Shown: positions 4,901 through 23,236 of the stretch, in pieces | How positions within the stretch are numbered: position 1 is the stretch's first letter | Layout of the letters: every line of letters begins with the position of its first letter | From: a virus | Virus record (IMG/VR): IMGVR_UViG_3300030085_002447 | Span: 1-24,321 of that record | Reading direction: 5' to 3' (one strand) | DNA length: 24,321 nucleotides | Notes under the pieces: model-generated | Seen by the model: the letters and a program-made list of their open reading frames with translations, nothing else | What the model was told of the DNA's origin: nothing | Database searches by the model: none | Made by a program: the position numbers and the translations under genes

Positions 4901-7900
4901 TTGTTACATCAGCTTGTAATCCGATGTTATTGGTGTATGGATATGGACGAACTAAACCTTTATCAATGTCTAGAGAAACATTATAGTCAATATTTGATGT
5001 TGCAGCAAAATTAGAAGACCTAAAATTATCAACTAAGAAACCATTCTTAAATCTATTATTTCCATTAGCATCAAGAATTGCAAGATTATTGGTGTCAGTT
5101 TCAAGAAGACTTAGTGTAGTGTAATATTCAATGTTATCAATTCTAGTCTCAAGACTACCAATATCCTTCATGGTAAATCTCTTTGTCTTTTCGGTAGAGA
5201 TTTTAACAGTCTTGGTATCTTTCAGATATGCAGGAACATCCAATGTTGCAAGCAACAAGGCATTAGAAACTGTAATAGGGATAGTTGGATTTACAGATGG
5301 AGATCCAGTAGAAACTTTAAATTCGCCATTCTTATCCAAGAACAATCTATCAATTCTACCAAGATAGTAGTTATAGTCATAACTAATTACCTCTGCTGGG
5401 AATGGGAATGGGGCAGTAGATTTAGTGTTTCCATATAAGTCAAATGCCGAATTAGAACCACCCGCAACATATGGAGAAACTGCAGCACCAGTGCCTGAAG
5501 ATGTGGATGGCGAATAGCTTTGTCTGAAATCAAAAATGTCGGTATATGAAATACCTTCATATGTGTTAGGAATTTTATCGTAGTCAATCTTTGTAGTATC
5601 AAAAGAATTTGCTGCAAAGAAATCATTATTAGTATTCACATGATCAAAATGATCAAACACTACATTAATTTTATTCTGAGGAGTTGGTCTATTGTTTAGT
5701 CTCTGTAACTTAGAAATTCTATAAGAATCAGAAACATCATTCTTAATTAGAGCATAGTTATTAGTAACGTCTTTATATTGACCATGAACAACGTCAGTTA
5801 AAAATCTACCCACGAGTGATGGGTTAGATGTAACAACAACCTGTGTAGTTAGATTAGATCCTTCTACAAATTTTATATCAGAAATATAAACAACATGAAG
5901 AGTTGTTCCATTGACATGAATAACTTCAGCAACGACATCATTCAATTTTAAGATATCACCAACAACAATACCAGAGACATCATTGATAATGACTCTATCA
6001 AACATATCATTATCAGAAACACCAGCAACTAAAGCTTCATGGACTCTATGCACTTTGTAAACATCTGGGAATTTTAGATTGATTTCTTTATCATCAAATC
6101 TATTTCCATATGTTGTGTATGTACTGTCCTTTTTATTTGGTACAGAAAGGAAAGTAAACTGTTGTGGTGTTTTTTCTCTAGAAGCGGTATTATTTACTCT
6201 TAGTTTATAGTAAACATCTACAGCACCAGTTACAGAAGGTGTAATATTGGATAAAGTTAAAGTATTTCCATTAATACCTGCAGTCGCTGTGTGAACTCCA
6301 CCTGCAGCGGAAAGGATGGTAAATCCAGTAGAAAGAACAGTATAGTTGTTAGGGGCACTAATAGATACTTGATTTCCAGAAACAGTCTTTGTTACCTTGT
6401 CTAACTTAACATATGAAAAATCATCTACAGATTTTACAGGTAAACCAGATGCAGAAACATAGAAGTTTTTATTTTGTGATTTTAAAACATTACCTGTGAT
6501 ATCTGTAACAAACCCACTACCATTGATAGCCGATGCTACATCAGCAATAGTATAATCAGTTACTTGTGTAAGAGTAAGACTTACATCATCTCTACTATTT
6601 GTTACTACGTCATTTTGAGCAAATTTACCAGTTAACTGTCTGAGTTCAATTGTTAGTGTGCTACCAGAAATTGTTGCACTATTAACTACAGCACGAGCTC
6701 CCTTTGGTGTGAAAATAAAGTCACCTTCAATCAAATTAGTAGAAGATGCAGCAGCGGTAACTACAGTATAAGTAGTTACTTCAGAAACATACAATCTATT
6801 TCCAGAAATACCAATTGCTTTTGCAAGACCAATACTTAAGTTTGATGAATTTCTGAGAGTAAGTGTCTCGTTTAAAGTTACAGACCCAAGAATGCTTGAA
6901 TACTCAAAGTAGTTTCCAAAATCAATATTTGTTGCTTTATTATTAACATCAAAAGAAGATCTTGGTTTTTCTACAGTTACATATCTTTTAGCAACATTAT
7001 TAATCTCATATCCTCTTACATATGCTTTACCAGGAGATACTTCGACAGTGTAAAAGTTTCTACCATCAATAGAATTTTCTGGATCCGTTGCGATAGGAGT
7101 TCTGTTTAAAATAGTTCTACCATCTTCAATGACAGTGTTAACTGGGTAGATGCCACCGTTCTTTCCTGTATCTAAGGTTTCATATACCTTAAAGGTGAAG
7201 TCTGTTAAGGTATAATCACCAGACTCGTCAAAAGTTCTTCTGGCAAGATTTTTTTCTAATTCATTATATACAGAAGTTTCTACTAATTCTTGGAGTGTAC
7301 CATCCTGAAGTCTTAACAATTCAATAAAGTCTGAATTGTCCGAGAATGTAATAATATCTTTCGATAATTTTGCTGAAATCTTTAATCTATCAGCACCAGG
7401 AGCAGCAAAGTTAGTCGAACCATTTGCGTTATCAAATAGACTATCATCTTCATTAGAAGATACAATCTCTTCAGTAACTGTCAAACCAACCTTATATGTT
7501 GGTTTATTAGAGTACTGATCTAAGATTACAAAAGAATCTTCTACTTGTACAAAGTATCCTCTAATGTAATATACACCCTCAGTTAGATATGCAATACTAC
7601 CAGTATAGGTAGTTGCATTAACGAGAGAAGTAACAGCAAGAGCAGTGGTTTGACCTTTTTCTACAAGGATTTCATTATTTTTAAACTTGGTTAACTGACT
7701 ACCAGATTCGGTAATACCACTCTTTGTATATTTGACATAAAGAGTGAGGGAGTCTTTCTCAGATTCGGCAACACTGAGACTGTTGACTACGATACCTTCC
7801 ACACCAGACTCTGAACCTACGAGAGTCTTTCCGACTAAGGTTGTCCTATATGATTCTACTTCAACCCCATTAACAAGGTTCTGGACAAGAACAGCAGGAT

Positions 7901-8117
7901 ATTCAAGATCATATCCAACTTGACCAGGAATTACTACAGAACCATCTTTAAAAGTATGATTACCAAATTGCTCAATCTGATTTTGCAGTTGCGTTTGCAT
8001 CTGCGTTAACTCTCTAGACTGAACTGGTAATCCAGGCTTGAAAAGAATCTTCTGGTAATTTTTCGACTTATCAAAGTCGTCAAAATACGGTGCCAGTTTA
8101 AGGTTGGTCTTTTGCAT
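1980..8117 (-). CDS. Giant DUF4815-type virion structural protein (2045 aa), gp9/gp10 position
   Basis: The N-terminus (LKLAPYFDDFDKSKNY, then a KPGLPVQSRELTQMQTQLQN segment) is the signature I associate with DUF4815. It is followed by YYIRGYFVQV (about residue 190), an APGADRLK segment and GKAYVRGYEI (about residue 360), all recurring in this family. Around residue 1120 there is NPFNTVTWVGDFQISPARDV. A PPPPPP hinge near residue 1445 leads into DPLAQSFFV and VTIDIRTIENGFPTETI, a jelly-roll-like module repeated across phage virion proteins. Later come IDNEIVAY with GGRG, then SPIIELDGSSV, and a C-terminal KNFRAIALAV strand. It follows gp8, where T4 has gp9 and gp10, so a baseplate wedge-to-fibre attachment role is likely. 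T4 gp10 is 602 aa; homology to it is not shown here. A CATAAATA late promoter variant precedes the ATG. The only SD-like AGGA lies about 13 bases upstream of the start, farther than usual. Confidence 0.87.
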   Translation of the reverse strand: MQKTNLKLAPYFDDFDKSKNYQKILFKPGLPVQSRELTQMQTQLQNQIEQFGNHTFKDGSVVIPGQVGYDLEYPAVLVQNLVNGVEVESYRTTLVGKTLVGSESGVEGIVVNSLSVAESEKDSLTLYVKYTKSGITESGSQLTKFKNNEILVEKGQTTALAVTSLVNATTYTGSIAYLTEGVYYIRGYFVQVEDSFVILDQYSNKPTYKVGLTVTEEIVSSNEDDSLFDNANGSTNFAAPGADRLKISAKLSKDIITFSDNSDFIELLRLQDGTLQELVETSVYNELEKNLARRTFDESGDYTLTDFTFKVYETLDTGKNGGIYPVNTVIEDGRTILNRTPIATDPENSIDGRNFYTVEVSPGKAYVRGYEINNVAKRYVTVEKPRSSFDVNNKATNIDFGNYFEYSSILGSVTLNETLTLRNSSNLSIGLAKAIGISGNRLYVSEVTTYTVVTAAASSTNLIEGDFIFTPKGARAVVNSATISGSTLTIELRQLTGKFAQNDVVTNSRDDVSLTLTQVTDYTIADVASAINGSGFVTDITGNVLKSQNKNFYVSASGLPVKSVDDFSYVKLDKVTKTVSGNQVSISAPNNYTVLSTGFTILSAAGGVHTATAGINGNTLTLSNITPSVTGAVDVYYKLRVNNTASREKTPQQFTFLSVPNKKDSTYTTYGNRFDDKEINLKFPDVYKVHRVHEALVAGVSDNDMFDRVIINDVSGIVVGDILKLNDVVAEVIHVNGTTLHVVYISDIKFVEGSNLTTQVVVTSNPSLVGRFLTDVVHGQYKDVTNNYALIKNDVSDSYRISKLQRLNNRPTPQNKINVVFDHFDHVNTNNDFFAANSFDTTKIDYDKIPNTYEGISYTDIFDFRQSYSPSTSSGTGAAVSPYVAGGSNSAFDLYGNTKSTAPFPFPAEVISYDYNYYLGRIDRLFLDKNGEFKVSTGSPSVNPTIPITVSNALLLATLDVPAYLKDTKTVKISTEKTKRFTMKDIGSLETRIDNIEYYTTLSLLETDTNNLAILDANGNNRFKNGFLVDNFRSSNFAATSNIDYNVSLDIDKGLVRPYPYTNNIGLQADVTIELSVGFGSVEKVGELRKTGTYLTLPYSEVSYSENPYASRVVNLNPFNTVTWVGDFQISPARDVWYDTQRTALENVPEIDLTGPIKFLYDRSGADGNEWGSWSRIGSRRRSGGRRITEERTGVRNEFSSTTQNIEVGDRINSLESIRFARSLVIDCFVSRMKPNSDLYLFIDGTDQNGVVYPKLFRGITRTVNNTSFVVGEKVTIEAQDASTTGRKIQADLVAPNKYDSTLSASYSSASTVLAIDNVTVDDGTLLDPPSLGTKLRFTGVTTGAIAEVTLTTPRIESNEVGDVDAFILLPGNQIETGQSRFVLTDQVDNTTISGVSDTNAVANYDSEGTLLDVTSMSLDFKIPEITTTPIRETRTRFIPDPPPPPPRRGDPLAQSFFVDQPGGMFISSIDVFFQSKDDSVPVTIDIRTIENGFPTETILPNSTKTIEASSITASTNASIPTRFTFDTPVFVAEGNDYAFVLRTRSLNYKVWVSRLNELDVTTNQVIHKQPAVGSLFKSQNMSIWNADQFEDIKFTINRAEFTTNTTLTASLPNKKISSVKIPNDSLYMTSGSTNIEILHPNHCMHTLQNYVDISGVKTDIPTVKLQTNMGNTQFTVATALNISDGTFIPTQINNAPISDLNLGYVLIDNEIVAYSAVNGNTITVPSGGRGISNTVIVAHNNSSAVEVYSLNGVPLTQINKRHKLTKIVDMDRYQISVASNANTTLQTGGSAINATRNFQFESITPRINDVVLSGTSLNYKISTVSGSNVTQQSTGTFASVGSTSVSNLEINELDSSRVILSEPNQTEYFGSAASFTLDVEMSTTVSSLSPIIELDGSSVITSMNRINSVKDVNGNISTTLSKDLESSGSLHDAVYVTKKVTLENSATSVKVLFDGVRKQGVDIKVFLKSKSDDVIDDFNLLEYVEIPSTSYPLSPVDGNQFKAFEFESTGLPAYKEFTIKLVMIGDDQSNVPLIKNFRAIALAV
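3765..3800 (-). other. Poly-proline hinge in the 2045-aa protein
   Basis: The reading frame here encodes IPDPPPPPPRRGDP, a run of six prolines followed by two arginines, at about residues 1440-1452. It separates a long N-terminal part from the DPLAQSFFV-type module. A linker or a stiff extended spacer is the simplest reading. Confidence 0.7.
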
Positions 8118-8156: not shown

Positions 8157-9722
8157 TCAGAACTCAATAACGAGTTTAATGTCTTCAATCTGGTCATCAG
8201 ATCTAATGATTGTTTTTCTATTTTCAATGTATAGAATTTCACCACTAAACTTTTTGACTTCAGATGGAGCATATCCAGTTGTGAATGAAGTTCCAGCAAC
8301 AGTAACTGTACCAGAAGCAGCAGTATCAGGTGTCAGAGAAGTACCTGAGGAACCACCTGTAATTGCATTAGCGCCAGAGAAATCAACTTTAGTATACTGT
8401 TGATTACCAGTCTGACCTGCAGATAGATATTCGTTCTGATAGTATCTAAGAATTTTATTAACAGAGTCCCAATGAATTACTCTACCTTTGGCGCCAGTAG
8501 ATGCTTGAGTAATTTCTTCACCGATAGTAAAGTTCACAGTAGTAGATACAGGGAACTTAATCGCCTTACATACAGAAGCAGTGTTGTCAAGTAAATCGGT
8601 ACTACCAGGAGTTTGTGGATCAGAAATCAATCCAAATCTTCTGAACTGCATATCGACAGGAACATCACCAGAACCATCTAGGAACTCAACTGCTTTATTA
8701 ATCATGACTCGATATGCACCAAGTTCCCTAACTACGTTAGAGCCATGTCCACCAGGAGGAGAAATGACCGCTTCGATAGAAGGAGATCCCTGGTTTAAAT
8801 CAACAGGAGTCGCAGTTCTAGCTTGCGCTGCAGCAAGGGTAGTGTAACATTCCTGTAGGTTTACAGTACCAAAAGTATATCCAGTTCCAACAGTTGAAAG
8901 GGCGACAGTACTAGGATCAATTTGACCAGAAGTAGGAGCTGTAGAAGAAACTGTAAAAGTTAAAACAGCACCAGAACCATCACCTAATACAGGAGAGAAG
9001 TAAGTTCCAGGTGTGATACCAGCACCAACGTTATTTACAACTGCTTGTTCAATTGTCCCATCAACCGCAGCTGCGACCACAGTAGAGTCCGACTTAACCG
9101 GCATGAAATCACTTGAAACAAACTTAACAAAGTCATTGATTCCTAACGTATACATATACTTCCACTTATAACCATCAGCGGTAGTAAAGATAGAAGTAGA
9201 TTGACCCGTTGGTTCTACAGTAGAAATAACACCATTTGAGTTTGTTGGGGTCTCACCATTATAGATGCACTTGTATACATCATAATTACTATTCATCACA
9301 TAAAACTGTGAATCATACAGTTTATTTGCACCAGTAGCAGACTGATTTGTCGTAGAATAGTTGTGCTTGTACATGTCATAACGAGTGTTGACAGTCCAAG
9401 TTCTCTTCCTGACTACTTGAGTGACATCACCACGGGTGATGCGTTTCATAGCAATCATGTCATCATAAATCTCACTCAACTCATCAAAGGAGTCTGTTGG
9501 TGCAGGGATATTATCAATATCATTAAAGCTCTGACCAGAATATCTCTCAGAGTTCCAGGTTTGAGATCGACCGATAAAGATATAGATCTTACTTCTATCT
9601 CTCAAAGCCTCGGTAGAAGAATCACTAAGAGCATTACCAGCAGTATCTAGAGGCTCCTCTAGAGACTCCATAAACTGCTCAGCAGCAAATACCCTAAAAT
9701 TGTCAGAAACTAGTGATGGCAT
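8157..9722 (-). CDS. gp8: Baseplate wedge protein gp8 (521 aa)
   Basis: gp8 is a wedge subunit that in T4 forms a dimer contacting gp7 and gp6. The family pattern is clear: RSKIYIFIGRSQTW (about residues 43-56), YDMYKHNY (about 115), SQFYVMNSNYDVYKCIYN (about 138-155) and GYKWKYMYTL (about 183-192). T4 gp8 is 334 aa; the extra length here lies largely after residue 220. It includes two glycine-rich GxGY-like segments (VGAGITPGTYF at about 230 and VGTGYTFGTV at about 275) of the type also found in the neighbouring giant. The ATG at 9722 has a purine-rich GGGAAG upstream and follows an exact TATAAATA late promoter. It lies between the gp7-position giant and the DUF4815 protein, the order expected from T4. 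Confidence 0.93.
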   Translation of the reverse strand: MPSLVSDNFRVFAAEQFMESLEEPLDTAGNALSDSSTEALRDRSKIYIFIGRSQTWNSERYSGQSFNDIDNIPAPTDSFDELSEIYDDMIAMKRITRGDVTQVVRKRTWTVNTRYDMYKHNYSTTNQSATGANKLYDSQFYVMNSNYDVYKCIYNGETPTNSNGVISTVEPTGQSTSIFTTADGYKWKYMYTLGINDFVKFVSSDFMPVKSDSTVVAAAVDGTIEQAVVNNVGAGITPGTYFSPVLGDGSGAVLTFTVSSTAPTSGQIDPSTVALSTVGTGYTFGTVNLQECYTTLAAAQARTATPVDLNQGSPSIEAVISPPGGHGSNVVRELGAYRVMINKAVEFLDGSGDVPVDMQFRRFGLISDPQTPGSTDLLDNTASVCKAIKFPVSTTVNFTIGEEITQASTGAKGRVIHWDSVNKILRYYQNEYLSAGQTGNQQYTKVDFSGANAITGGSSGTSLTPDTAASGTVTVAGTSFTTGYAPSEVKKFSGEILYIENRKTIIRSDDQIEDIKLVIEF

Positions 9723-9767: not shown

Positions 9768-12700
9768 TCAACCAGCAAAGATTACCTTAGTGTCAGTGGT
9801 TGCTGTTGCGGCGGTTGTACCAATTACTCCTCTAGTAACACCCTTGAGGTTTGTAGAATCGTGAGTGGTGTATTCAATCGCTTCATTGTTAATGAATGCC
9901 CTGAATGAATCATATCCAACACCACTGTTGATAACATCAACTGCAGTGATAGTACCAGAAGCATCTAAGGTCACTTCTAAAACAGCACCCTGACCACCAC
10001 CGTTGGTAGTGACTAATACAGAGTCAGTGTCTCCATATCCAGAACCACCGTTTTCAATATCAACACTAACAACTTTTCCACCGAGAACAAATGGTTGCAG
10101 AACAGCATTAGATCCAGTCGCAGATGTAATGGTAACAGAAATAGTACTTTCTGGTGACATTCCAGTTCCCGCAACAGGGATGGTAGTTGCACTAGTAGTA
10201 ATACCCGATGTCAATTTAGTTCCAAAGTGAACATCACTAGAACTTAGAACAACATCTCTAACAACATACGCTTCATATGTAGGAACTAATGTAGTATTTG
10301 TAAGATTATGTCCCTCGTAATCAACAACTACATTGTTCTTAATCTCACCACCCTTGATTGGGTCAATGAAAGAATTTGCAGAAGCACTATTGCCAATTCC
10401 ATATGTACGGAACTTCATCTTTCTTGGATAACCAACACCACCAGCAGTTACGTTAACACCAGTAAGTTTACCACCAGAAACTGTAGGTGTCGCAGTTAAT
10501 CCAGATGGTGATGTAATACCTGAAGGGGTATTGACTTCCATTACAGTCGGAGAATGAACTGCTGTTACTTCTCTTCTTGCAGACTCACCAGGAATAAAGA
10601 TAGAATCTCCAACTTCGACCTGTTGACTGTAAGACTCAACTGCAATATCAGATGCAACACTCATATAATCATAAAACTTGATACTGTCAGATGATGTTGG
10701 TGCAGAAGTAAATGTAACAACATTATCATGTACATAGTAATCACTAAGAGGATCTAGAACAAGACCATTCTTGACAGCAACGATTTGATTCTCAAACTCT
10801 CTTGGTCTACCAATCAGAGCATTTGGATAATATGCAGCAGAAGAATCCGTAAGATTGTAAGATGTCGCACCACTACCAGTGATATTATCAAGTTGTTTTA
10901 CAAGGCCATGAGTCTTGATAAAGATGTTATCTGTAGGAGCGGGAGCATTAGTAAAAACAATTCTAGAATCAATTGTACCAGTAACATTGTAGTCTACAAC
11001 TGGTGTTAGGACTACATTGTTCTTAGTTACAAATAAGTTTCTTGAATCTACTACAGCATCATTAGCAAAAGAACCATTTGGTATGAAGTTTTCTTCATCT
11101 AAGAAGAGATTGAATTCAGTTCTAGAGTTGTTATATGGTGTATGAATATAGTCAAGAACTTTACCTGTAGTTGTCAAAATAGCAAATGGAGTACCAGTTG
11201 TAGTTGCAGTATCAAAGTTCATCTGAGTAGTAGAAGTAAATTCTGCACCTCTACCAAGACCATACTTTGTATGATCATTCTGAACAAAGATGATCGACTC
11301 CTGTTCTGCAGCACTAAGTGCCCTACTAGTATTATAAACCTGTGAAGTAACTGGAGTTAGTGTGATAAGTTCATTATCAAACATACCAACCATCCAGATA
11401 TCATCACCAGGAACAGGAGCAACTGTAAATGTAATGCATCCAAGAACACTAATACCTCCCTGATTTAAGAGAGTATAGTCAACTCCTGGATGAAGGATAA
11501 CATTGTTCTTAGAAACAATGATATCTTCAAAAGCAGTGTAATTAGTGTATTTGATTCCATCTAACAGAAGTCTGAACTTAGTTCTAGATCCATCATAGAC
11601 TTGATTGATCTCATCAACGGATCTTTGTCTACCAGCAGACGAACCAAACTCAACAATATCGATTGCAGCAAGATATCCAACTCCCATAGGAATTGACATT
11701 GAGGAATATTTTTCATTATTTCCAATACCAGTGGAGGATGCTGTACCAGAACCACTATGGTCATAAGCAATTCCTGGTTCCTGAATGACTCCATCAAAGG
11801 CAACAAATGTATTTGATGGATCATCATACATAACCAGAGTATTTAAATTCAAGTTGGTAATGCGATAATGATTACTACCAATCGTAAGAGTACCACTCCT
11901 TTGTACAATATTAACTACATCAGTACCACTGATTGTAGTTGACCCACTTCTCTGAGTTACCGTAAATGTATTATTTACAGTTGGTACAAGAACTTCATTA
12001 TGATTGTCTCTTTGAAGAACAACCAGATTAGCATTCAAAATATCACCATAGACATTTTGTGGTCTAAGAGTACCAAGTTTTGCATGGAACTCGACTTGAT
12101 CAGTTGCGAGTGTAGGTAGATTAGTACCAGTAAATGTTAGTGTTTTTGCAGCACTATCCCATGTATAGGAATTCTGATCTTGATAAACACCATCAACATA
12201 AACAAATGGAACTTTTGTTGATGCATTGGGAATATTGCCAGTATAAGAAAGAACAGTAGAACTTGACTGAGACAATCCATCTGTCAGATCATGGAAATTA
12301 TTTGCATCATTCACATGGAACATGATGAATACATCTTCAGTCGCTCTTGGTGGATCAACAAACTGAATTCTATAAGATCCAGTACCAGTATTAATATCAT
12401 GTGGATCTACAGGAGTGATTAAACTGTAATCTGTAGTTGGATATTGATAAACACCATTTCTGACGACAACTAAACTCTCAACTCTTGGATCTTCACCAAC
12501 CAAGTCATCACATTCTGCATCAAAACTGTGGAGTAGAGTAAACGTAGTTCTAACGCCATCAAAGTGTTCGTTTCTATCAAGAACCCAGTTTCTGTGGTTG
12601 TTTGGAACTAACTGTCTATTGAAAGACATTAGTTTGACAACATCGGAACTAACAGGAACATCTGTGTAAGTTACCTTATTTGCAGACGCAACTTGTAATT

Positions 12701-15700
12701 GTACGTTGGGTCTGGAATCGACAGCATTAAGATGAACATCTGGACGAAGAAGAACATTATTCTTGACTGTAAAGAGATCAGTACCATTAGAAACTGTCTC
12801 AGGAACACCATCATCAGATAGATTAAATCTAGTTCTGACGCCATTGAATACATTGAACTGATCTAACTCGGCGCCGCGTTTTGTACTATCATTTGCAACA
12901 TAAGATCCAACAAAATCTCTAATCGCACAAGTGACTCCAGATGCAGGAGCTGTAGTAAATGTAATCTGAGTTCCACTTACAGAATATGCACTTTCCTGTT
13001 GAATCACACCATTAAGTGTAACCATAAGAGAGTTTTCGCCGCCAACAGGAATATAAGGATCCGTCTCATTGATGATGAGATCAAATGTAGTTGTAGAACC
13101 ATTAAATTGACTAGAGATGTCGTTAATAACCTCTACATGACTGGTAGAGTATTCTGGATTGGAATACTTAAATCTAGACCCAAAACCATGTGCTGTAGTT
13201 CCATCGAGATACAGAGTACCATCGATAGTTTCTTTGGCAAGTTCAAAGAATCCATTTGGTTTCTTAACACCATCAGATTGAATCTTAAGGGTTACATTTT
13301 TAGCTTCATTACAAATTAAATCCTTACCCCTAATTTGTTTTCCAAAGACATCAGCGAGAGATAATTGTTCGCATACAACAGTTTCATCTATTTGCCAACC
13401 AAAAATTTCGGATGGATCAACAGATGTAGGGAATGTAATTCTAGAACCAGATACCGTGAAATCAGTAACATGATGTGATTGATTAACACCTTCAAAGAAA
13501 ATTAAGAGTTTACAATTATCGGAAGGAGTAAATCCAAGATCAAACTCAGTACCAGCAGATCCAGTAAAGGTAATTGGAGATAGTTGGGGATGATAAAGAA
13601 CAAAGTTTGGTTGATCTTGAATATCAACATTAAATTGTAAAATATTATTATTAACACCAGTTACTGTAAAGTTGGTATTTCTTTGAACAACACCATTCAA
13701 AGAAACTAATAGCTTATTGACATCAGGAATATTAAATGGTAACGAGTCTACCGTCAAATTAACTTGACGATTTGCATTAACACCAGAGGGTTTTGCATTA
13801 GTGTATGGTGTAGTTAAACGATAGGAAATCAGTTCGTCTCCACTAAATGGAGCGAAATTAGGAACAATATTTGGACCTGTTACATTATAACTAATTCCTG
13901 GAGTTTGGAAAATACCATTAACAGATAATAGAGTTTTAGTTAATTGAGAAGTATTATTAGTTGGGATTGTACTAAGTACCTTAATAATAAACTCATTGAT
14001 ATTAAACTCTTCACCAAGGAGAGCAACTACAATATAGTTAGTACCAATTTCAACAACTCGACCAAATTGCTCGGACTCAGTGCCAAAAACAATATCGTAA
14101 AGTTTATATGGGTTTGGATCAGCATCAATATAAAGAATTTGTTTTTTACATTGTGGTGTTTCTACATCAAGATCTAAAATACTAGTAATAGATGCTTTAA
14201 AAGTAACAGCACTTCGTACAATGTTTTGCGATCTTCCCAGCAAAGATTTTCTACTATGTACTCTGTTCTTACCGAATAATCTGAATCCAGAAGGATGAGT
14301 ATTCTCTAAAACTTCGGATCTCCAATCCTTAGTATTTCTTTCGTTTACGATGGTGTAAGACCAATCTTGATAGTAAACATTGTCTTCCAATCTTTGGAAG
14401 TCATCACTAATATGTCCTACAGTCCCAGCAAATTTTTCTGGAATATTTCCATATGCAGATGCTTTAGTATAAGCTCTTGCATCATTTACATGTGTAATTA
14501 CACCATATGTTCTGCCATCAGAACTCAGAATCGTATCGTCTACCTTAAACTCACCAGAACTAACAAGTAGTTCTAGTGTAGAAGATTTAGTATCAATACT
14601 CAAAATCTTGGCTGATGTACCACCAGAAACACTGACCGTATCACCAACATTCAGAGTCCTTCTTCCAATCGAAACATCAAAAGTTGCACCAGAACCACCA
14701 TTTTGACTAAACAATTCTAACGTTGGAACATCTTCAAAACCACTACCACCATCAATGATAGTAGCACTCATAACCTCACCAACACTATATCTAAATTCAA
14801 TGTTAGTTGTATTTTGTTGTCCGTTTACGGTGTAATATGGATTCAGTAAGTAGTTTTGTCCCTTCGTCTTAACTTTAACATCAGTAATCTCAAAATTAGA
14901 TTTAACTTTAACAGTAATTGGAAGTTCTACATATTTTCTAACATTTCTAGATCCATAGAATTGATCGCCGTAAGAAACATAATCAATATTTCTAAGAGAT
15001 CCAATAGTAGAAGAATTAGCAGAAAGAATTGCACCACTACCATTCTCTGAAGTAACTGTAGAAACTGCTGGTAGTGATCTATAACCAGCGCCACCATTTG
15101 CAATATTTACAGTCTTGATGGGTCCTGTAGCACCTTTAGATCTAATGCTAAAATCTAATGAACTGATATTGACACTAGAAATTGTCTCGGTTAAAGGTAA
15201 AACAAATTTATTTGGTGTAGATTTTTTAACAATATATCTACCAACAAGAGGAGATGTAACAACGCTCAATTCAAAAATAGCATTTGTTGTGTGAACAAAT
15301 ACTTTAGAAGGAATATTCGATGGATCAATATCAAAATAAGTAGAATTTAAAGAAATTCCTTTTTGATGATATGGATTAAAATTAAGACTATCAAAAGATA
15401 AATTATAAGTTCTTGCAGAACCAAATTGAATTCTATATTTCTTATGTTTTTCTAGAGACACAGAATATAGTTGCTTAGATCCGATAGTTTGAACAACTTC
15501 GGAAAGCAGATCGAGATTAATTATAGTATTTGTAGACTCTTTGAATAAATCAATATAAACAACATCATTCTTAGAAATGTTGTGTGGTCCACTAAATGTA
15601 AATTCGATTTCTTTTTTATCATTGTCTACAGCAGCATTAGTAACTGGTGGAGACTCAACAGAACTTACATATGCAATCGCGCCGCTTCCAGCAGTTCCAG

Positions 15701-18700
15701 CGTTATCAAATACTAGATAGTCTCCTGTCCTGTAATTTGAACCTTTCTTTTCAATAAAGATAGAATCAACTGATCCAACACTAGTATAAGCAGTTTTAAG
15801 AAGTGTTTTATTAATATTCTTAATCTGCTCTGGAAAATATGTATTCGCAGAATCATTTAATCTAGTTAGTCTCTGTGGGATCTTATCATTGGTCCTATTC
15901 TGTCCTAAATTATAACAATCTGGATCAGAGAAATATTGAGGACCGATTACAAATGGATACACATCTACCATAAAGTAACAATATGCACCATTTGGAAATT
16001 CTGGTGTCACACAGAATCTACCATTAAATTTATCCAGCGTTCCAAAATCTTCTACATATTCATAATCTTCAATAAAAGAACCTAATGGATAGTCATTGAT
16101 AGTAGGGCCATTTAATCTAGTGCCCTTCAATCTATATGAAGATGTCTGCTCAGATACGCCAGAGGTATTGTCTAATGCAGTAGTGTATCCATATTTACAA
16201 TAGATAGGGTGTCCATCATAAGACCATCCGACAATCTTCGAGTGTTCCGATGAAGTAATACCATAATGAGTTTCAAAAGCAGAAGTATTTGTTAGTTGTA
16301 AATATTGGTACTTAAGTCTAGATTCTGGGAAGGAACTTCCAAGAACTTCAGAAATCTTTAATGATCCTCTAACTCTATCATCACCCTGTGAAATAGTAAT
16401 CTGTTTTCCTCTTAACAAAGGAGCTTTTTCAGATGTAATTTCTGCTTTGGAGAGAGATATTGTTTTATTAGTTACATCAACACCAGCAACAAAAGTTCCA
16501 GCAGATAATAATGGATGAGATACTTCCATACCGACGATAATGTCGGATGATGTAAAAGTATCTTTCAATTTAATTACACTACGAGGAAAACTACCCGAAG
16601 TTTCTTCGATTTCGTAATTCCCGCCCTTGGAATCATCAAATACATAACCACCAAATGTATCAACACCAGTAGTAAATCTATTTGCAATATTAAATGTCCA
16701 AGACTTTAATTGAGAAGAAACTGTTGCTGCTTTAGAGTTTTTACTGATAGCAACAACTGGAGGAATACCATATCCAGAACCAGAATTGACGATAGAAACA
16801 TTAACAATTCTTCCGTTGGATACTACTGGTCTGAGAACTGCACCAGAACCAGCATCTTTTGTAATTACGGTTAGAGTTGGTTCTACGAAGAAATTTTTTC
16901 CTCCATTTAAAATCTGTACAGCTACAACTTTTCCATTTGAAACTACAACAGATATTTCAGCCCCAGATCCATCATCAATAACAACTGTTGGATTTGATGT
17001 AAACTGACTACCAATCTCAGTCGTGAGTTTAATTGTACTCGAAGAACTAGATGCAGAAATAATAGGACCAGTAAATACAAAGATCAGATCTTCATTACTA
17101 CTATTTCTTAATGGGACATCATAACTGGTAAATTTACCACCACCAGAAATTCTGATTGTTGGTGCTTTGGTATAACCATAACCACCATCAATGATGAGGA
17201 TATTATCAATATTACCGTCAGCAAAGCCAACGTCTAATACTGCATCTCTAAAACCAACTGGATTTTGTTGAACACCATTTACAACTGGATTGTTATTAAT
17301 GACTTCAATTTTTGGTTTTGCTGAAAATCCAGTAAAGTTTGGAAGGATAGAAGATTCAACCAGTTGGAAATTTACTTTCTGAATAGAAGCGGCGATATCA
17401 ATTGTCCCATTAGGAACAATCTTATCAACAGTTTCACCACCATTTTTCTTCAAGAAAAGTGCAGGTAAACCAAGTTTATCAAATTCACCAGCGGAGGTAT
17501 ATGCAACTTGATATTCACCACCATCGCCGATGGTCAATGACTCAACAGCACCATAATATGCTTTATTTCCCTTAAGAGAATTATATTGAATACCATCAAT
17601 AGTAATACCAATTGCTTTTTTGGTATCAACTGGAGTTAATGCTTTAGACTTCCTAACAATATTATTATTAATAATACTGGATGGGAATGGAATTCTCTTA
17701 ACTAGTTTTTGTAGTTTATAATTATTTCTGTCTAAGTTGATACCAGATAAGGTATTGAGATTACCCGTGGAAACACCAGATCCACAATCAATAACTGTTA
17801 GTGTAGCACCACTATTTGATTGTGTAAGAGTGATAGTAGAACCATTGATAGTATATGAAGTTGTTGGTTTCTGGACAACTCCGTTGATCGAAACAATTAC
17901 ACTGTCAGTGGTTGCAGTAGTGTAGTTACTACCACCATTTTGTAAAGTATAAGTTGTAGATGTAGTAGTTGTAATAGAATCTAAAATATCTGCACCATCA
18001 ATAGTATATGCCAAGATGTCATCAGTACCTACAGTTACGGTCTGACTAGTAAAGGTTACAGTTTTAGTTGAATCATTATATGTAAAGGCACTACCAACTT
18101 GCAGTACACCATTCAAGAAAATAAAAATTTCATCTCTAGTTAAAGTGTCATTAGTAGTTAAGACAACATCAGAAGACTGTGTACCCTGAGTAACAGCAAG
18201 TTTACTAACTTGATTTGCAGTGTTAAAATATCTTGTATAAACTTCTTCAGAAGGTAATGGTACAGTATTAAAGTTTAATACATCATTGACCAAGAAATAA
18301 TCGGTATTAAGTTCCTGAAGTACAGCATTTCTAAACACCAGAAGACTTTCTGGAACTAGAGAACTTGCACTAACACCTGTCAAAAAGGCATTTGTATAAC
18401 CATCAAACACATTCGACAGTGTTCTAGTTTTACCAGTTGTATATGGGGGAATACCAGTAGATGATGCATATACATGACCTGTTCCGTCATCAGTAGAATC
18501 ATAAAGTCCAGTGACACCAATATAATCACTGTCAGTATCTAGTGTATGATTACTGTTTACATTCCAAGAAGAATATTCAATACCCTTAAAATCTTCATAA
18601 TCTTTCCCATCAAATTCATAAATTTGATTACTAAACAATGCACCACCTTTCTCGATAGTGACTCTATCTACCATACCGATAATTCTCGCCGTTGCTGCGG

Positions 18701-20786
18701 AAGCAACTACAGCACCATCGATTTTAGATATATTTGGTAGAGATAAAGTAACAATTTTACCAGAAATTCTTCTAATCTTTGCATCTGTAGCAATACCAGA
18801 TCCAACTACACTCTGACCAATAGTTAAATTTCTAGCACTAGAAACAACAATTTCTAATTCACCTTGATTACCAGTAGCAGTAATTTCTGGTGTTCCCACA
18901 AAAGCAGTGCAGAAATAATCTAATTTACTATCACCAATATATTCCCATTCAATTCTACCAATTCTTTCTGTACCAAACAAATGTGTTGGTGACAAATTAG
19001 AATCCGTAGTTCCTGTAGTTTTTGCAACATATAAATTATCACCAAGATATCTTTCTTGACCTTGTTCTACATACTCACCCCTTGTATATTCTCTCCTAGT
19101 TTTATATCTACCAAAAGATACTACTTCTGTTCCAATAATTTTAGATCCTGTATCAGAAGTAGTACATCCTAAAAATTGATTAACAGTTCTTTCTGCATAT
19201 TCTACTTTAAATCCATCAATGTAAACAATACCATTAGTTACAGGGAATCCAGAAGCGTCATCTACTGTTATTACATTATCAGTGTGGTCATATCGATGAG
19301 TTAATTGAGTAGATGCTGGTAGATAGATATCATTAAAATCATCATTAATATCAATATCAATCTCATATACTGGTTTACCAATAACATCAATTTTAGAAAT
19401 AAAACTAGCTTCAGTAGAATTTGATTTTACTCCAAAGATAGTATCTTGTTTTTGAAGTAAAGTTACATAATCTGGTGGTAAAATTTTATCATTATCTGTT
19501 TTTTCCAAAGATCCTTCAATAATTTCAATCCTGGCGATTTTTTTACCAAGGAAGTTGGATTCGGAAGATCTTAGAAGATAATCTTTGGGAAATTCAATAT
19601 CAGGATCTTGAGAAACAAACTCGAATGATTTTACAAACCCTCTTGCGTTTTCACCAGAACCAGAACGAAGTTCATCTGTATTAGTAAAGAATCCAATAAT
19701 ATTTGTAAGTGTAAGTTCACCAGTATTGAAATCCCAACTTTCAACAATACCTGTACCATTACCAGAAATAGAGGTTACGATTTCTTCTTCACCAAAATCT
19801 CGTTCTCTAACAAATGCTGTAATGGGACCAACATAATTTGAACCAGCATCAGTAATTGTAATACCAGTATAATTTGGGTCAATTGTAGATCCTTCTACAA
19901 TTCCACCACTAGAATCAATTCCAGCAACTGTCAAAACTGCAGTTTTATTAGCAATATCAACTCCTTGACCACTACCAAAAATTTCAATGACTGGTGGATT
20001 GATTAAAACGGCATTATCGGTTCTATTATCATATCCAGAACCACCTTCTGTAACCTGAGCGTTACCAATCGCACCATCAAAGTTAACAATCTTGATAGTT
20101 GCACCAGTTCCCCTATCTTTTAACCTAAACCTAATCTTTTTATCATTGAATAAAATTCTAAACAGAATTCTATGAGAATTTAAGCTACCTTTGGCTGAAT
20201 AGAAAGATCTTACTTTAGAAAGGAAAGATGATAACTCTAATTCTTCAACTAAAACTTCTGGAATACCTACAGCAATCTCAGTTTTAATTCTTCTGAGAAA
20301 TTCATTGGTATAAGCAAAAGCAATATTTACTACTTCATCTTTATTAAAATGACTATCAGCAATAGATGTTGTTAAAGTAACTTCAGAAAGAGGTACACTT
20401 GTAAGGATAAGTGCTGAAGTACCTCTTACACAATTCTGAAACTGTGTATCTGTTTTAGAACCATAATAAACAATTTCTTTACCAATTTGAATATATCCTT
20501 TCTCTGGAAATCCTGTAGTATCTTCAACAACAATTGTAGAAACCGAAGAATCGATATCTGCTGTTAACTTAGTCTTCTCTACAAGTTCACTTTTCCTAAA
20601 GTGAGATACATTATAATATTCAATTAAATTTTCAGCAATATCTAATGGCTGATTTTTTAATTCTTGAGATTCATAGTATGATTTTAAAAAATTAATAAAC
20701 AGAGAACTCTCTTCCCTCACAAACTGAGGGAATTGATTTTCAATCAAATTAGAGAGACCAACCGTTTTATCTACTAAGAATTTCAT
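9768..20786 (-). CDS. Giant 3672-aa baseplate-region virion protein in the gp7 position
   Basis: This is one uninterrupted 11-kb frame. I choose the ATG at 20786, which overlaps the gp6 stop (ATGA) and has AGGTG just upstream, rather than the GTG two codons earlier. The N-terminus (FPQFVREESSLFINFLKSYY, then VRSFYSAKGSLNSHRILFRI near residue 200) is a helical domain pattern known from phage baseplate proteins. The rest is beta-type. A TGFP...EIVYY...CVRGT module lies at about 87-125, with a relative near 505 and a degenerate one at the C-terminus. At least twelve GGSGY-like segments are scattered through it. A YHYH-type domain occupies about 1512-1619. At least fourteen LNGV-type repeats lie mostly at 2285-3375. 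By synteny it stands where T4 has gp7 (1032 aa), the wedge initiator that binds gp10 and gp8. Equivalence is inferred from position, not from clear sequence similarity. A fibre-like or receptor-facing role for the repeats is possible. Confidence 0.82.
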   Translation of the reverse strand: MKFLVDKTVGLSNLIENQFPQFVREESSLFINFLKSYYESQELKNQPLDIAENLIEYYNVSHFRKSELVEKTKLTADIDSSVSTIVVEDTTGFPEKGYIQIGKEIVYYGSKTDTQFQNCVRGTSALILTSVPLSEVTLTTSIADSHFNKDEVVNIAFAYTNEFLRRIKTEIAVGIPEVLVEELELSSFLSKVRSFYSAKGSLNSHRILFRILFNDKKIRFRLKDRGTGATIKIVNFDGAIGNAQVTEGGSGYDNRTDNAVLINPPVIEIFGSGQGVDIANKTAVLTVAGIDSSGGIVEGSTIDPNYTGITITDAGSNYVGPITAFVRERDFGEEEIVTSISGNGTGIVESWDFNTGELTLTNIIGFFTNTDELRSGSGENARGFVKSFEFVSQDPDIEFPKDYLLRSSESNFLGKKIARIEIIEGSLEKTDNDKILPPDYVTLLQKQDTIFGVKSNSTEASFISKIDVIGKPVYEIDIDINDDFNDIYLPASTQLTHRYDHTDNVITVDDASGFPVTNGIVYIDGFKVEYAERTVNQFLGCTTSDTGSKIIGTEVVSFGRYKTRREYTRGEYVEQGQERYLGDNLYVAKTTGTTDSNLSPTHLFGTERIGRIEWEYIGDSKLDYFCTAFVGTPEITATGNQGELEIVVSSARNLTIGQSVVGSGIATDAKIRRISGKIVTLSLPNISKIDGAVVASAATARIIGMVDRVTIEKGGALFSNQIYEFDGKDYEDFKGIEYSSWNVNSNHTLDTDSDYIGVTGLYDSTDDGTGHVYASSTGIPPYTTGKTRTLSNVFDGYTNAFLTGVSASSLVPESLLVFRNAVLQELNTDYFLVNDVLNFNTVPLPSEEVYTRYFNTANQVSKLAVTQGTQSSDVVLTTNDTLTRDEIFIFLNGVLQVGSAFTYNDSTKTVTFTSQTVTVGTDDILAYTIDGADILDSITTTTSTTYTLQNGGSNYTTATTDSVIVSINGVVQKPTTSYTINGSTITLTQSNSGATLTVIDCGSGVSTGNLNTLSGINLDRNNYKLQKLVKRIPFPSSIINNNIVRKSKALTPVDTKKAIGITIDGIQYNSLKGNKAYYGAVESLTIGDGGEYQVAYTSAGEFDKLGLPALFLKKNGGETVDKIVPNGTIDIAASIQKVNFQLVESSILPNFTGFSAKPKIEVINNNPVVNGVQQNPVGFRDAVLDVGFADGNIDNILIIDGGYGYTKAPTIRISGGGKFTSYDVPLRNSSNEDLIFVFTGPIISASSSSSTIKLTTEIGSQFTSNPTVVIDDGSGAEISVVVSNGKVVAVQILNGGKNFFVEPTLTVITKDAGSGAVLRPVVSNGRIVNVSIVNSGSGYGIPPVVAISKNSKAATVSSQLKSWTFNIANRFTTGVDTFGGYVFDDSKGGNYEIEETSGSFPRSVIKLKDTFTSSDIIVGMEVSHPLLSAGTFVAGVDVTNKTISLSKAEITSEKAPLLRGKQITISQGDDRVRGSLKISEVLGSSFPESRLKYQYLQLTNTSAFETHYGITSSEHSKIVGWSYDGHPIYCKYGYTTALDNTSGVSEQTSSYRLKGTRLNGPTINDYPLGSFIEDYEYVEDFGTLDKFNGRFCVTPEFPNGAYCYFMVDVYPFVIGPQYFSDPDCYNLGQNRTNDKIPQRLTRLNDSANTYFPEQIKNINKTLLKTAYTSVGSVDSIFIEKKGSNYRTGDYLVFDNAGTAGSGAIAYVSSVESPPVTNAAVDNDKKEIEFTFSGPHNISKNDVVYIDLFKESTNTIINLDLLSEVVQTIGSKQLYSVSLEKHKKYRIQFGSARTYNLSFDSLNFNPYHQKGISLNSTYFDIDPSNIPSKVFVHTTNAIFELSVVTSPLVGRYIVKKSTPNKFVLPLTETISSVNISSLDFSIRSKGATGPIKTVNIANGGAGYRSLPAVSTVTSENGSGAILSANSSTIGSLRNIDYVSYGDQFYGSRNVRKYVELPITVKVKSNFEITDVKVKTKGQNYLLNPYYTVNGQQNTTNIEFRYSVGEVMSATIIDGGSGFEDVPTLELFSQNGGSGATFDVSIGRRTLNVGDTVSVSGGTSAKILSIDTKSSTLELLVSSGEFKVDDTILSSDGRTYGVITHVNDARAYTKASAYGNIPEKFAGTVGHISDDFQRLEDNVYYQDWSYTIVNERNTKDWRSEVLENTHPSGFRLFGKNRVHSRKSLLGRSQNIVRSAVTFKASITSILDLDVETPQCKKQILYIDADPNPYKLYDIVFGTESEQFGRVVEIGTNYIVVALLGEEFNINEFIIKVLSTIPTNNTSQLTKTLLSVNGIFQTPGISYNVTGPNIVPNFAPFSGDELISYRLTTPYTNAKPSGVNANRQVNLTVDSLPFNIPDVNKLLVSLNGVVQRNTNFTVTGVNNNILQFNVDIQDQPNFVLYHPQLSPITFTGSAGTEFDLGFTPSDNCKLLIFFEGVNQSHHVTDFTVSGSRITFPTSVDPSEIFGWQIDETVVCEQLSLADVFGKQIRGKDLICNEAKNVTLKIQSDGVKKPNGFFELAKETIDGTLYLDGTTAHGFGSRFKYSNPEYSTSHVEVINDISSQFNGSTTTFDLIINETDPYIPVGGENSLMVTLNGVIQQESAYSVSGTQITFTTAPASGVTCAIRDFVGSYVANDSTKRGAELDQFNVFNGVRTRFNLSDDGVPETVSNGTDLFTVKNNVLLRPDVHLNAVDSRPNVQLQVASANKVTYTDVPVSSDVVKLMSFNRQLVPNNHRNWVLDRNEHFDGVRTTFTLLHSFDAECDDLVGEDPRVESLVVVRNGVYQYPTTDYSLITPVDPHDINTGTGSYRIQFVDPPRATEDVFIMFHVNDANNFHDLTDGLSQSSSTVLSYTGNIPNASTKVPFVYVDGVYQDQNSYTWDSAAKTLTFTGTNLPTLATDQVEFHAKLGTLRPQNVYGDILNANLVVLQRDNHNEVLVPTVNNTFTVTQRSGSTTISGTDVVNIVQRSGTLTIGSNHYRITNLNLNTLVMYDDPSNTFVAFDGVIQEPGIAYDHSGSGTASSTGIGNNEKYSSMSIPMGVGYLAAIDIVEFGSSAGRQRSVDEINQVYDGSRTKFRLLLDGIKYTNYTAFEDIIVSKNNVILHPGVDYTLLNQGGISVLGCITFTVAPVPGDDIWMVGMFDNELITLTPVTSQVYNTSRALSAAEQESIIFVQNDHTKYGLGRGAEFTSTTQMNFDTATTTGTPFAILTTTGKVLDYIHTPYNNSRTEFNLFLDEENFIPNGSFANDAVVDSRNLFVTKNNVVLTPVVDYNVTGTIDSRIVFTNAPAPTDNIFIKTHGLVKQLDNITGSGATSYNLTDSSAAYYPNALIGRPREFENQIVAVKNGLVLDPLSDYYVHDNVVTFTSAPTSSDSIKFYDYMSVASDIAVESYSQQVEVGDSIFIPGESARREVTAVHSPTVMEVNTPSGITSPSGLTATPTVSGGKLTGVNVTAGGVGYPRKMKFRTYGIGNSASANSFIDPIKGGEIKNNVVVDYEGHNLTNTTLVPTYEAYVVRDVVLSSSDVHFGTKLTSGITTSATTIPVAGTGMSPESTISVTITSATGSNAVLQPFVLGGKVVSVDIENGGSGYGDTDSVLVTTNGGGQGAVLEVTLDASGTITAVDVINSGVGYDSFRAFINNEAIEYTTHDSTNLKGVTRGVIGTTAATATTDTKVIFAG
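10661..13937 (-). repeat. LNGV-type protein repeat array, main cluster in the giant
   Basis: About eleven copies of a pattern close to 'hhVxxNGVhQxPxxxYxVxGxxIxFTxAPxxxDxIxh' occur between residues about 2285 and 3375. Examples are VTLNGVIQQESAYSVSG, VSLNGVVQRNTNFTVTG, VTKNNVVLTPVVDYNVTG, VVRNGVYQYPTTDYSL and AVKNGLVLDPLSDYYV. Spacing is irregular (about 65-130 residues) because spacer segments such as FDGVRTTFTLL, FNGSTTTFDL and YDGSRTKFRLL come between them. These spacers themselves form a second conserved element, '(F/Y)(D/N)GxxTxFxL'. The repeats are diverged at the DNA level. Confidence 0.85.
15928..16252 (-). other. YHYH-type domain inside the giant
   Basis: Residues about 1512-1619 read KIVGWSYDGHPIYCKYGY, a spacer, then LDKFNGRFCVTPEFPNGAYC followed by YF and VDVYPFVIGPQYF. 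This matches the general form of the YHYH family ('GxAxDGxPIYGxxGY ... LDxxNGRxxxTPExPxGTYxYxxT'). The position that gives the family its name reads YCYF here, so the histidine is not kept. Such domains recur in marine phage virion proteins; their function is not known to me. Confidence 0.75.
17827..18352 (-). repeat. LNGV-type protein repeat array, smaller N-terminal cluster in the giant
   Basis: Three consecutive copies are readable at residues about 812-987: VFRNAVLQELNTDYFLVN, IFLNGVLQVGSAFTYND and VSINGVVQKPTTSYTING, each followed by a hydrophobic strand and a turn. They are the same repeat type as the array at 10661-13937. About 1,300 residues holding GGSGY-like segments and the YHYH-type domain separate the two clusters. 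Confidence 0.8.
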
Positions 20787-22786
20787 GAGCACCTGCCAGG
20801 ATCTGTTTCTGGTGTAAAGTCGTTAATAGTTGTAATATTATTTGGATCATCAATTTCTGATGTAGGATCACCATCATCAGATGGTACTCTGGTATCTCCT
20901 GTAGTTTCCCCTACTGGAGGTACGGGCAACTCAGTAAATGGACCAAGATCCTCGGGTTTTACATCATCTGGATCACCGATAATCGTAATATCACCAATCT
21001 CAATATCAGGATATGTCGCATCACCAACATTCACATTCGGTGTTGAAGGCACCGCACAAATATTTATTGGTGCATCATCACAGGATGCCACAGAGAAACT
21101 AAAGTCTCCAGTTTCAAAATTAATAGTGCCAACACTTCTCAAGAAGTTTCCTTTACTATCAACTAAGTAAATATTTTCATCAATAACACAATTTCCAGCA
21201 CCAAAAGATTTGACACAAAGTCTAACTGGATCCGCTACACCAGGAGTACAGAAATAATCCGATACAACGGCGCAATGACTTTCTAATTTATTTTCAATTG
21301 CAGTAAAGAATGATGCATCATATTTTGTTTCAATTTCATTATTTTTCTCAAGTCTAACCAAAACACATGTTTTAACTTTAATATTACTATATGTAATAGC
21401 ATCATCAATGTCTTGAATATCCGAAAGAATATTAGACTGTGAATAAACTCCACCGAAGTTCTTGAATGAATCGGAATTTTCAAAATCTACAAGCAGATCG
21501 GTAATTAACTTTTTAAGTTCAGTTGGTGTTTTTCTAGTTTTATTTCTATCATATACAACAAATGGACTCAAGTTGAGAGTATAATTCTTAGGATCTCTAA
21601 TTACTGGAGTAATAGAACCAACAATGAAACTCTTTAAATCATTGAGAATTCTAGTCTTCTCAGAATTACTAACAACTTCACCAACCTTTGGTTTAATGGT
21701 AATAAAAACTTTACCATATTCAGGAGGCGTCAATGTTTCACCACCAACTACTTTAACCAGATCAGCATTTCCATAAAGTTGCATAATTAATGATTCATAA
21801 TCACTAATTGTTACCGCTCTACCTTGAGCTGCATAATATCTAGGTGCTCTATACTTGATTGATGAAATACTCTCAAATTCAGAACCACCATCAGTAAATT
21901 CTGTATTTAATTGGAAAGTAACATTACTAAGGGCAATTTTTTGAACAACATTATTAGCAATATAATCAATTCCACCCACGAATGTAAAAGAGGATTCTTT
22001 TACATTGTTTAATGCACCACCAGCAGTTTTAATGTATTCAATATTTACAATTTCACCGTTCTGAAGTTTTCTACCAATTACATCATCACCAAAAACAACT
22101 TCATACTGTTGATCCTGAATTTCCTCAACAAAGAATACTGTATCAGATTGTGAAACACCAACAATAGTATTTTTTCTGGTATATTTTACCGAAGAAGTTG
22201 CAGTAGCATCATCTTTTACAGACACCTTAATGCTGTCCGAGTCAATAAAGTTGTTTGGAATAATAAAACGTTGATTCTCGTTAGAAGTATCTACAGTATA
22301 CGAAATATTAAAGGATGTACCTTCAAAGATATCAACATCCCTAAAGGTTACTGTATTAGAACCTGCTGGAACTGTAAGATTGATTGGTTCTCTGGAAACA
22401 AATGTATAGTTCTTTTTCTGATACTTCGTAGATAAAACAGGACCAGACTTCAGAGAAATTTTATCAATATTTAATGCAGAAAGACCAGTCACGGTAATAT
22501 CAACGCTTGCTCTCGAAGAGGTATAAGATCCTGGAGAATATCCCAGTCTTTTAGCATGAGAGACAATATTATCTCTCAACACAGCAGTATCGAGATTTAA
22601 CTCGTTTGACGCCATGTTGATATTGTACGATGTGTACAACGTATTATACGCAAGAATATCAACCAACATCGATAGATTGGAACCATCAAAATCATAGTCG
22701 CTAAAGTCCGACTTTGTTTTGATATAATTTTTGATTGATGCTCTGAGTTGATTAAACTCTAGCGCTGATACTGATGGTAATTCCAT
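20783..22786 (-). CDS. gp6: Baseplate wedge protein gp6 (667 aa)
   Basis: gp6 forms the central ring of the T4 baseplate wedge and belongs to the baseplate J-like family; T4 gp6 is 660 aa. The N-terminus is diagnostic: SALEFNQLRASIKNYIKT, DGSNLSMLVDILAYNTLY, NMASNELNLDTAVLRDN and AKRLGYSPGSYTSSRA. Around residue 230 come YEVVFGDDVIGRKLQNGE and near 315 YRAPRYYAAQGRAVTISDYE, both typical of this family. The ATG at 22786 directly follows the gp25 TAA with no gap, and GAGAAAG lies just upstream. The last ~195 residues carry all eight cysteines of the protein, and the last ~85 residues form an Asp/Pro-rich acidic tail ending RCS. That tail looks disordered and is unlikely to be part of the ring fold. 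Its stop overlaps the start of the giant. Confidence 0.95.
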   Translation of the reverse strand: MELPSVSALEFNQLRASIKNYIKTKSDFSDYDFDGSNLSMLVDILAYNTLYTSYNINMASNELNLDTAVLRDNIVSHAKRLGYSPGSYTSSRASVDITVTGLSALNIDKISLKSGPVLSTKYQKKNYTFVSREPINLTVPAGSNTVTFRDVDIFEGTSFNISYTVDTSNENQRFIIPNNFIDSDSIKVSVKDDATATSSVKYTRKNTIVGVSQSDTVFFVEEIQDQQYEVVFGDDVIGRKLQNGEIVNIEYIKTAGGALNNVKESSFTFVGGIDYIANNVVQKIALSNVTFQLNTEFTDGGSEFESISSIKYRAPRYYAAQGRAVTISDYESLIMQLYGNADLVKVVGGETLTPPEYGKVFITIKPKVGEVVSNSEKTRILNDLKSFIVGSITPVIRDPKNYTLNLSPFVVYDRNKTRKTPTELKKLITDLLVDFENSDSFKNFGGVYSQSNILSDIQDIDDAITYSNIKVKTCVLVRLEKNNEIETKYDASFFTAIENKLESHCAVVSDYFCTPGVADPVRLCVKSFGAGNCVIDENIYLVDSKGNFLRSVGTINFETGDFSFSVASCDDAPINICAVPSTPNVNVGDATYPDIEIGDITIIGDPDDVKPEDLGPFTELPVPPVGETTGDTRVPSDDGDPTSEIDDPNNITTINDFTPETDPGRCS

Positions 22787-23236
22787 TTAACTTTCTCTAA
22801 CTAAAATGAAGTCTACGGTTTGTACTGCTTCGGGAATGCCGACAATAAAGTATTCGACAAAACACTCAAAACTGTTTAAGTCTGGATCAGCACTAACATC
22901 GATATTTGACAGAATAATTCTGGGTTCATTTTCCTTCAGAACTGTTTCTATCTCATCAATGAGTGCATTTTCTGAAAATCCAGTAGAGAGTTCAAACAGA
23001 TACGATGTCGTTGAGGTTCCGAGGTTTGGTTGAAAGAAACGTTCACCAACCTGTGTCAATACAAGGTTTTTTACAGCCTGTTTGATGGCTTCTTCATTTT
23101 TTAGAGTTACGATATCCTTCGTAATTGGGTTCTTAGAGAAATTAAAGCTTATATCTTTAAAAGCTCTAGAAGTTCTACCCAAATAGTTATCTACTATCTG
23201 AGTAGGTGCTGTTGATCTGGAAACGCTAAAAGACAA
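22787..23236 (-). CDS. gp25: Baseplate wedge protein gp25 (149 aa)
   Basis: This is the GPW/gp25 family wedge subunit, which in contractile systems sits at the sheath-proximal part of the wedge and helps start sheath polymerisation. Conserved elements are DISFNF (28-33), NPITKDI (36-42), EEAIKQAVKNLVLTQVGERF (48-67), the LFE strand (80-82) and ENEPRI (102-107). T4 gp25 is 132 aa. The only in-frame start is TTG at 23236; no ribosome-binding site precedes it. An ATG lies five bases upstream in another frame. The protein has no other methionine, so the exact start is uncertain although the domain is complete. gp6 starts at the base after its stop. Confidence 0.93.
   Translation of the reverse strand: MSFSVSRSTAPTQIVDNYLGRTSRAFKDISFNFSKNPITKDIVTLKNEEAIKQAVKNLVLTQVGERFFQPNLGTSTTSYLFELSTGFSENALIDEIETVLKENEPRIILSNIDVSADPDLNSFECFVEYFIVGIPEAVQTVDFILVRES

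Follow-up and report, generated by a model that had tools for sequence, protein, structure and literature searches.

A giant open reading frame at the gp7 position of a T4-like viral contig probably encodes gp7 with an amplified beta-module extension

The window analysed here is a complete record, a viral contig of 24,321 bases, so whole-genome questions are addressable solely in its complete relatives. Its minus strand carries an open reading frame of 3672 aa (~399 kDa) when counted from the ATG, or 9768–20792 if an upstream in-frame GTG is included. The uninterrupted 11-kb frame lies exactly where the original prediction placed it, between genes for the baseplate wedge proteins gp6 and gp8, and Pfam and PHROG matches verified both neighbours (Table 1). 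The ATG at 20786 overlaps the stop codon of gp6 (20783–22786), just as the gp6 and gp7 genes of T4 overlap. Across the span of the giant frame, the remaining five frames contain 152–509 stops with a longest open run of 150 codons, which rules out a chance origin. The gene order gp25, gp6, giant, gp8 and VrlC-type protein is that of other T4-like marine phages, and the giant's place between gp6 and gp8 is kept in every relative examined, T4 included. Predicted secondary structure and repeat profiles agree with the anticipated helical N-terminus followed by a beta-repeat body. The C-terminus of gp6 (20783–20995, minus strand) carries a Pro/Asp-rich extension of ~70 aa past its phrog_219 match.

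Table 1 Features of the giant open reading frame and its neighbours in the window.
Feature	Position	Strand	Evidence and remarks
VrlC-type virion protein	1980..8117	minus	phrog_358, DUF4815; not gp7-like; position as VrlC in P-HM1, S-SM2 and HTVC008M
gp8, baseplate wedge	8157..9722	minus	PF09215, phrog_438
gp7 homologue (probable)	9768..20786	minus	ATG start, 3672 aa; gp6–gp8 interval; upstream in-frame GTG at 20792 possible
GG repeats 7–9, near C-terminus (residues 3432–3654)	9825..10493	minus	GG HMM
NGVxQ repeats 4–14 (residues 2264–3383)	10638..13997	minus	repeat HMM, iE 1.6e-5 to 1.3e-27
GG repeats 5–6 (residues 1881–2045)	14652..15146	minus	GG HMM
YHYH domain, C-terminal half, without YHYH motif (residues 1501–1613)	15948..16286	minus	PF14240; alignment with two bacterial YHYH proteins
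GG repeats 2–4 (residues 1184–1367)	16686..17237	minus	GG HMM
NGVxQ repeats 1–3 (residues 782–1011)	17754..18443	minus	repeat HMM, iE 2.4e-5 to 6.6e-21
Second wing-like domain (residues 482–551)	19134..19343	minus	A6 HMM, iE 2.3e-10
Gly-rich GG repeat 1 (residues 231–285)	19932..20096	minus	GG HMM
gp7 core helical segment 2 (residues 159–219)	20130..20312	minus	hhalign and HMMs; motif FYxSKGxxxSxxxLFxxLxxx common to T4 gp7 725–757
Beta "wing" domain inserted in core (residues 67–158)	20313..20588	minus	alignments A1 and A4; model pLDDT mostly 83–95, lower at 121–140
gp7 core helical segment 1 (residues 7–61)	20604..20768	minus	HMMs from A3 and A6; hhalign A4 vs A3; helices in model
gp6, baseplate wedge	20783..22786	minus	PF21379, phrog_219
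gp25, sheath initiator	22787..23236	minus	PF04965

Proteins at the gp7 position of T4-like phages span a wide range of lengths: ACP17, 482 aa; X1, 498; Moby, 503; pf16, 523; Cr30, 767; Melnitz, 896; phiM12, 1007; HTVC008M, 1016; T4, 1032; F86, 1164; P19, 1167; DLP6, 1288; S-SSM7, 3007; S-PM2, 3048; this contig, 3672; DSL-LC03, 4107; S-SM2, 4156; P-HM1, 4446; S-T4, 4749; P-SSM2, 5195; S-SM1, 6180; S-SZBM1, 6619; P-SSM4, 7312. Searches by tblastn with the first 500 aa matched 364 phage records, nearly all of them cyanophages, in many of which the gene already bears the name "gp7" or "baseplate wedge initiator", and more than 580 stretches in IMG/VR encode relatives of the giant's N-terminus. A giant gp7 is thus standard in T4-like viruses of marine cyanobacteria, and a size of 3672 aa is neither new nor peculiar to this contig. 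The proposal that this frame is the wedge initiator is upheld by its position and N-terminal module, while the peculiarity attached to its size is not.

Alignment of the window protein's relatives with shorter gp7-position proteins revealed two conserved helical stretches at its N-terminus, with a wing between them that the window and cyanophage proteins have and most short forms do not. T4 gp7 (PDB 5IV5, 5HX2), which likewise lies between gp6 and gp8, has the same pair of stretches at ~646–826 and not at its start. The alignment of window and cyanophage N-termini (A4) matched that of intermediate short gp7s (A3) in hhalign at 99.8% (E 4.7e-29), and the short gp7s in turn matched the T4 family at 98.5% (E 2e-15), covering T4 641–851. 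Direct comparisons of the window and cyanophage N-termini with the T4 gp7 family gave 93.6% (E 2.2e-7) and 95.7% (E 9.1e-9), mainly over the second helical stretch; the first is tied to T4 via the short forms. Since these values are single pairwise comparisons, controls were run, and they showed no similarity between the T4 gp7 family and VrlC (alignment A8, 0.2%) or gp6 (0.1%), or between the module and VrlC (2.2%). HMMs built without T4 sequences scored T4 gp7 at 31.5 and 25.3 bits, against top scores of 8.6 and 12.2 among 2000 shuffles.

The key test was a search of ten complete genomes with a profile made from T4-family gp7 alone. The giant frame was the sole match in P-SSM2, S-SM2, DSL-LC03 and S-SZBM1 (E 5e-7 to 1e-3), as was gp7 in phiM12; the complete genomes of S-PM2, P-HM1, S-T4 and HTVC008M gave no match. 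In these last four, the short-form profile A3, of which HTVC008M is itself one row, finds the module in the gp7-position frame, and the helical part of A3 has the gp7-position frame as its sole match in the ten complete genomes. Outside ~640–850, T4 gp7 gave no sequence match to the giant, so that T4 residues 1–640 and about 850–1032 are without a detected counterpart and the module lies in the C-terminal half of T4 gp7 versus the N-terminus here. Full-length similarity to T4 gp7 is lacking in the giant and equally in the short gp7s, and is therefore not required of a gp7.

Comparison with cultured relatives extends this picture. The proteins named gp7 or "baseplate wedge initiator" in Kyanoviridae (P-SSM2, S-SM2, P-HM1, S-SZBM1, P-SSM4) have in common with the window protein their position, the N-terminal module and the GG and NGVxQ repeats; identity is about 20–30% over the N-terminus, and a YHYH segment occurs in all cultured giants checked for it. 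Repeat number and order differ, with 14 NGVxQ repeats in the window vs 1–3 in cultured Kyanoviridae. The short gp7s of phiM12, Cr30, HTVC008M, Melnitz, DLP6, Moby and ACP17 share the position and the N-terminal helical module and carry one or two GG modules each, but are without the long repeat extension; most also lack the wing, and Melnitz and HTVC008M have a different insertion. We consider it very probable that the 3672-aa protein is this phage's gp7, orthologous to T4 gp7 via the wedge-core module and bearing an amplified beta-module extension as its proposed arm. On these profile comparisons, cyanophages are judged to have kept gp7, with the module at the N-terminus.

A different answer appears in the literature, where VrlC is reported to stand in for T4 gp7, said to be absent from pelagimyophages and cyanomyophages (PMC7029224); the giant would then be an unrelated virion protein that happens to occupy the gp7 position. 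Cyanophages are indeed not among the main groups matched by tblastn with T4 gp7, and the greater part of the giant corresponds to nothing in T4. However, by profile comparison the N-terminal part of the giant contains a gp7 module, VrlC resembles neither T4 gp7 nor the module in the control comparisons above, and phages with a short gp7 such as phiM12, ACP17 and HTVC008M have both genes. VrlC is rejected as the gp7 substitute by profile comparison, having no gp7-like module, and we regard loss of gp7 in cyanophages and pelagiphages as very unlikely. Replacement of gp7 by a different scaffold, which the original prediction had offered as its other outcome, is not borne out either, with no other carrier of the module in ten complete relatives. 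Because VrlC lies after gp8, is a separate gene in short-gp7 phages too, and has no gp7 similarity, the giants are correctly labelled "gp7" in GenBank, whereas several related labels are wrong. The sequence-level answer that cyanophages retain gp7 contradicts PMC7029224 and backs the existing gp7 labels.

Structure prediction was less informative about the core. An AlphaFold2 model of residues 1–364 gave the helical core a pLDDT of about 32–50, and no PDB chain matched the model at E <= 0.001; such low values would not be surprising if this segment needs its partners in order to fold. Had residues 1–250 been set against the beginning of T4 gp7, the homologous module at ~646–826 would have gone unnoticed. 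The whole giant and its YHYH segment had no significant match and no match, respectively, in the PDB by sequence. A model of residues 1490–2640 left the YHYH segment without a confident fold, and its PDB fold search returned nothing at E <= 0.001. Fibre or spike domains in the PDB were matched by fold with E values of 0.02–0.1 at best, which counts against the arm role proposed below. A BFVD search returned mainly cyanophage and uncultured phage relatives and offered no further lead. Pfam PF12322, used as a T4 baseplate probe, matched nowhere, controls included, and is a poor probe.

The remaining ~3450 residues of the giant consist of amplified beta modules, which were delimited with NGVxQ and GG repeat HMMs derived from the window sequence. 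The NGVxQ repeat (~80 aa) is present in 14 copies here, 12 and 20 in the related contigs L015 and L017, and 1–3 in the cultured cyanophages examined. The Gly-rich GG repeat (~50 aa) has nine copies here and one or two in most small gp7s checked; GG-type modules are also found in other virion proteins, e.g., gp8-type genes. The wing recurs as a second copy and, weakly by HMM, near the giant's C-terminus. The NGVxQ profile matched the depolymerase of a Klebsiella phage twice in its N-terminal region (9k4a, residues 101–254, E 1.5e-8); weaker matches were to HRP29 Gp44 (E 0.0018), a gp47 tail fibre (0.012) and the fibre of cyanophage P-SCSP1u (0.023). DUF4183 (PF13799) scored 24.2 bits, under its curated cut-off of 25.1. 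Small gp7s already have one or two copies of some of these modules, so it was probably duplication of modules at the C-terminus, and within the wing in certain relatives, that enlarged the protein. In P-SSM4 (L041:6645-21501), S-SM1 (L045:7822-22001) and S-SZBM1 (L145:1353-21212) the wing insertion in the gp7 module has expanded from ~90 to ~500 aa, with repeats of its own.

Embedded among the repeats is a segment that matches PF14240 at E 9.2e-31 (107.7 bits against a curated cut-off of 25; profile positions 80–187 of 193). Phage YHYH domains have been predicted to be Zn-dependent hydrolases (PMC7824862), and together with the strong match this would favour an active metal-dependent hydrolase, with the giant acting as an enzyme that degrades walls or surfaces. 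The match, however, begins only at profile position 80, and the YHYH motif, which precedes the shared part in two bacterial YHYH proteins, was not found in the giant's PF14240 segment. At the Y-x-Y-x site further on the sequence is YCYF or YAYF, and few of the histidines are left. With the motif missing and YCYF at the downstream site, the hydrolase prediction appears unlikely to hold for this copy, and an enzymatic role for the giant is accordingly rated very improbable.

If the protein is gp7, structures known from T4 and Vibrio phage XM1 suggest that its core module would pack with two gp6 chains into the core bundle of each wedge, with one gp7 per wedge. From the wedge, the repeats would extend as an arm on which receptor-binding proteins are docked at intervals, and this arm would take over part of the role of T4's gp10–gp12 network. 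The arm role is based on the resemblance of the repeats to N-terminal regions of fibres and depolymerases. It fits the spike-carrying role of XM1 gp17, a described gp7 orthologue with an N-terminal helix-turn-helix and an inserted segment that bears tail spikes (PMC10457771), and also the published observation that g10, g11 and g12 are missing from cyanophages (PMC2984593). XM1 gp17 has just 242 aa, and its likeness to the giant is taken from the published description. In two relatives, giants of this kind have been shown by mass spectrometry to reach the virion: S-SZBM1_208 (6619 aa), which lies directly after gp6 and carries the gp7 module, was found in purified virions with 71 peptides and 13.5% coverage (PMC9146016). 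T4-GC969 of S-SM1, the giant at the gp7 position, was likewise detected in virions (PMC3037559).

A serious rival, which we hold to be a real possibility if short of probable, accepts the giant as gp7 but gives its extension a purely structural role, as a skirt by which the baseplate is stiffened or widened and to which no receptor-binding protein attaches. By sequence alone a skirt and an arm look alike, and the occurrence of GG-type modules in gp8-type and other virion proteins suits a structural function; the similarity of the NGVxQ repeats to the N-terminal regions of spikes and fibres and the spikes borne directly by XM1's gp7 counterpart speak against it. For the docking arm, we tentatively suggest that cyanophage gp7 may have absorbed the outer baseplate, so that one polypeptide would serve as wedge core and as a modular arm docking several receptor-binding proteins, with a tunable number of NGVxQ repeats (20, 14 and 12 among related contigs) altering arm length or spike number. 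A baseplate periphery larger than that of T4, as the original prediction proposed, is plausible. The location of the core module shows where to seek the wedge core in a cyanophage baseplate map, and the repeats named here probably form the periphery, making it testable how cyanophages manage without gp10–gp12.

Several relatives carry labels that their module content does not match. S-SSM7 (L042:12651-21656) has two giant "gp7" genes at the gp7 position with a gp9-like gene between them, and the second, which is without the helical gp7 module, seems to be mislabelled. S-SZBM1_205 (L145:24354-26201), labelled "baseplate wedge initiator", consists of wing and GG beta modules only, without the helical gp7 module. 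The gp7-position protein of pelagiphage HTVC008M (L032:6602-9652) is annotated "head closure Hc2", yet carries the gp7 module; the label probably stems from its GG-type module.

Other genes of the window bear on its origin and annotation. A SET-domain protein truncated by the contig end (24075–24320, minus strand) is 88% identical to a SET-domain lysine N-methyltransferase from Synechococcus phage Sf-CH1b, and six further Synechococcus phage records contain it as well; its identity to the Sf-CH1b protein suggests that this phage is a cyanophage. A search for psbA in eight related contigs found none, which has little bearing on the host as all eight are fragments. The neighbouring 221-aa protein (23422–24087, minus strand) belongs to phrog_3704, whose label "ferredoxin" is doubtful because 221 aa far exceeds a typical ferredoxin and P-SSM2 has a 2OG-Fe(II) oxygenase there. 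Towards the other contig end, an LtfC-like beta-sandwich protein (1394–1726, minus strand; PF23926, above cut-off) adjoins a tail-fibre-like gene.
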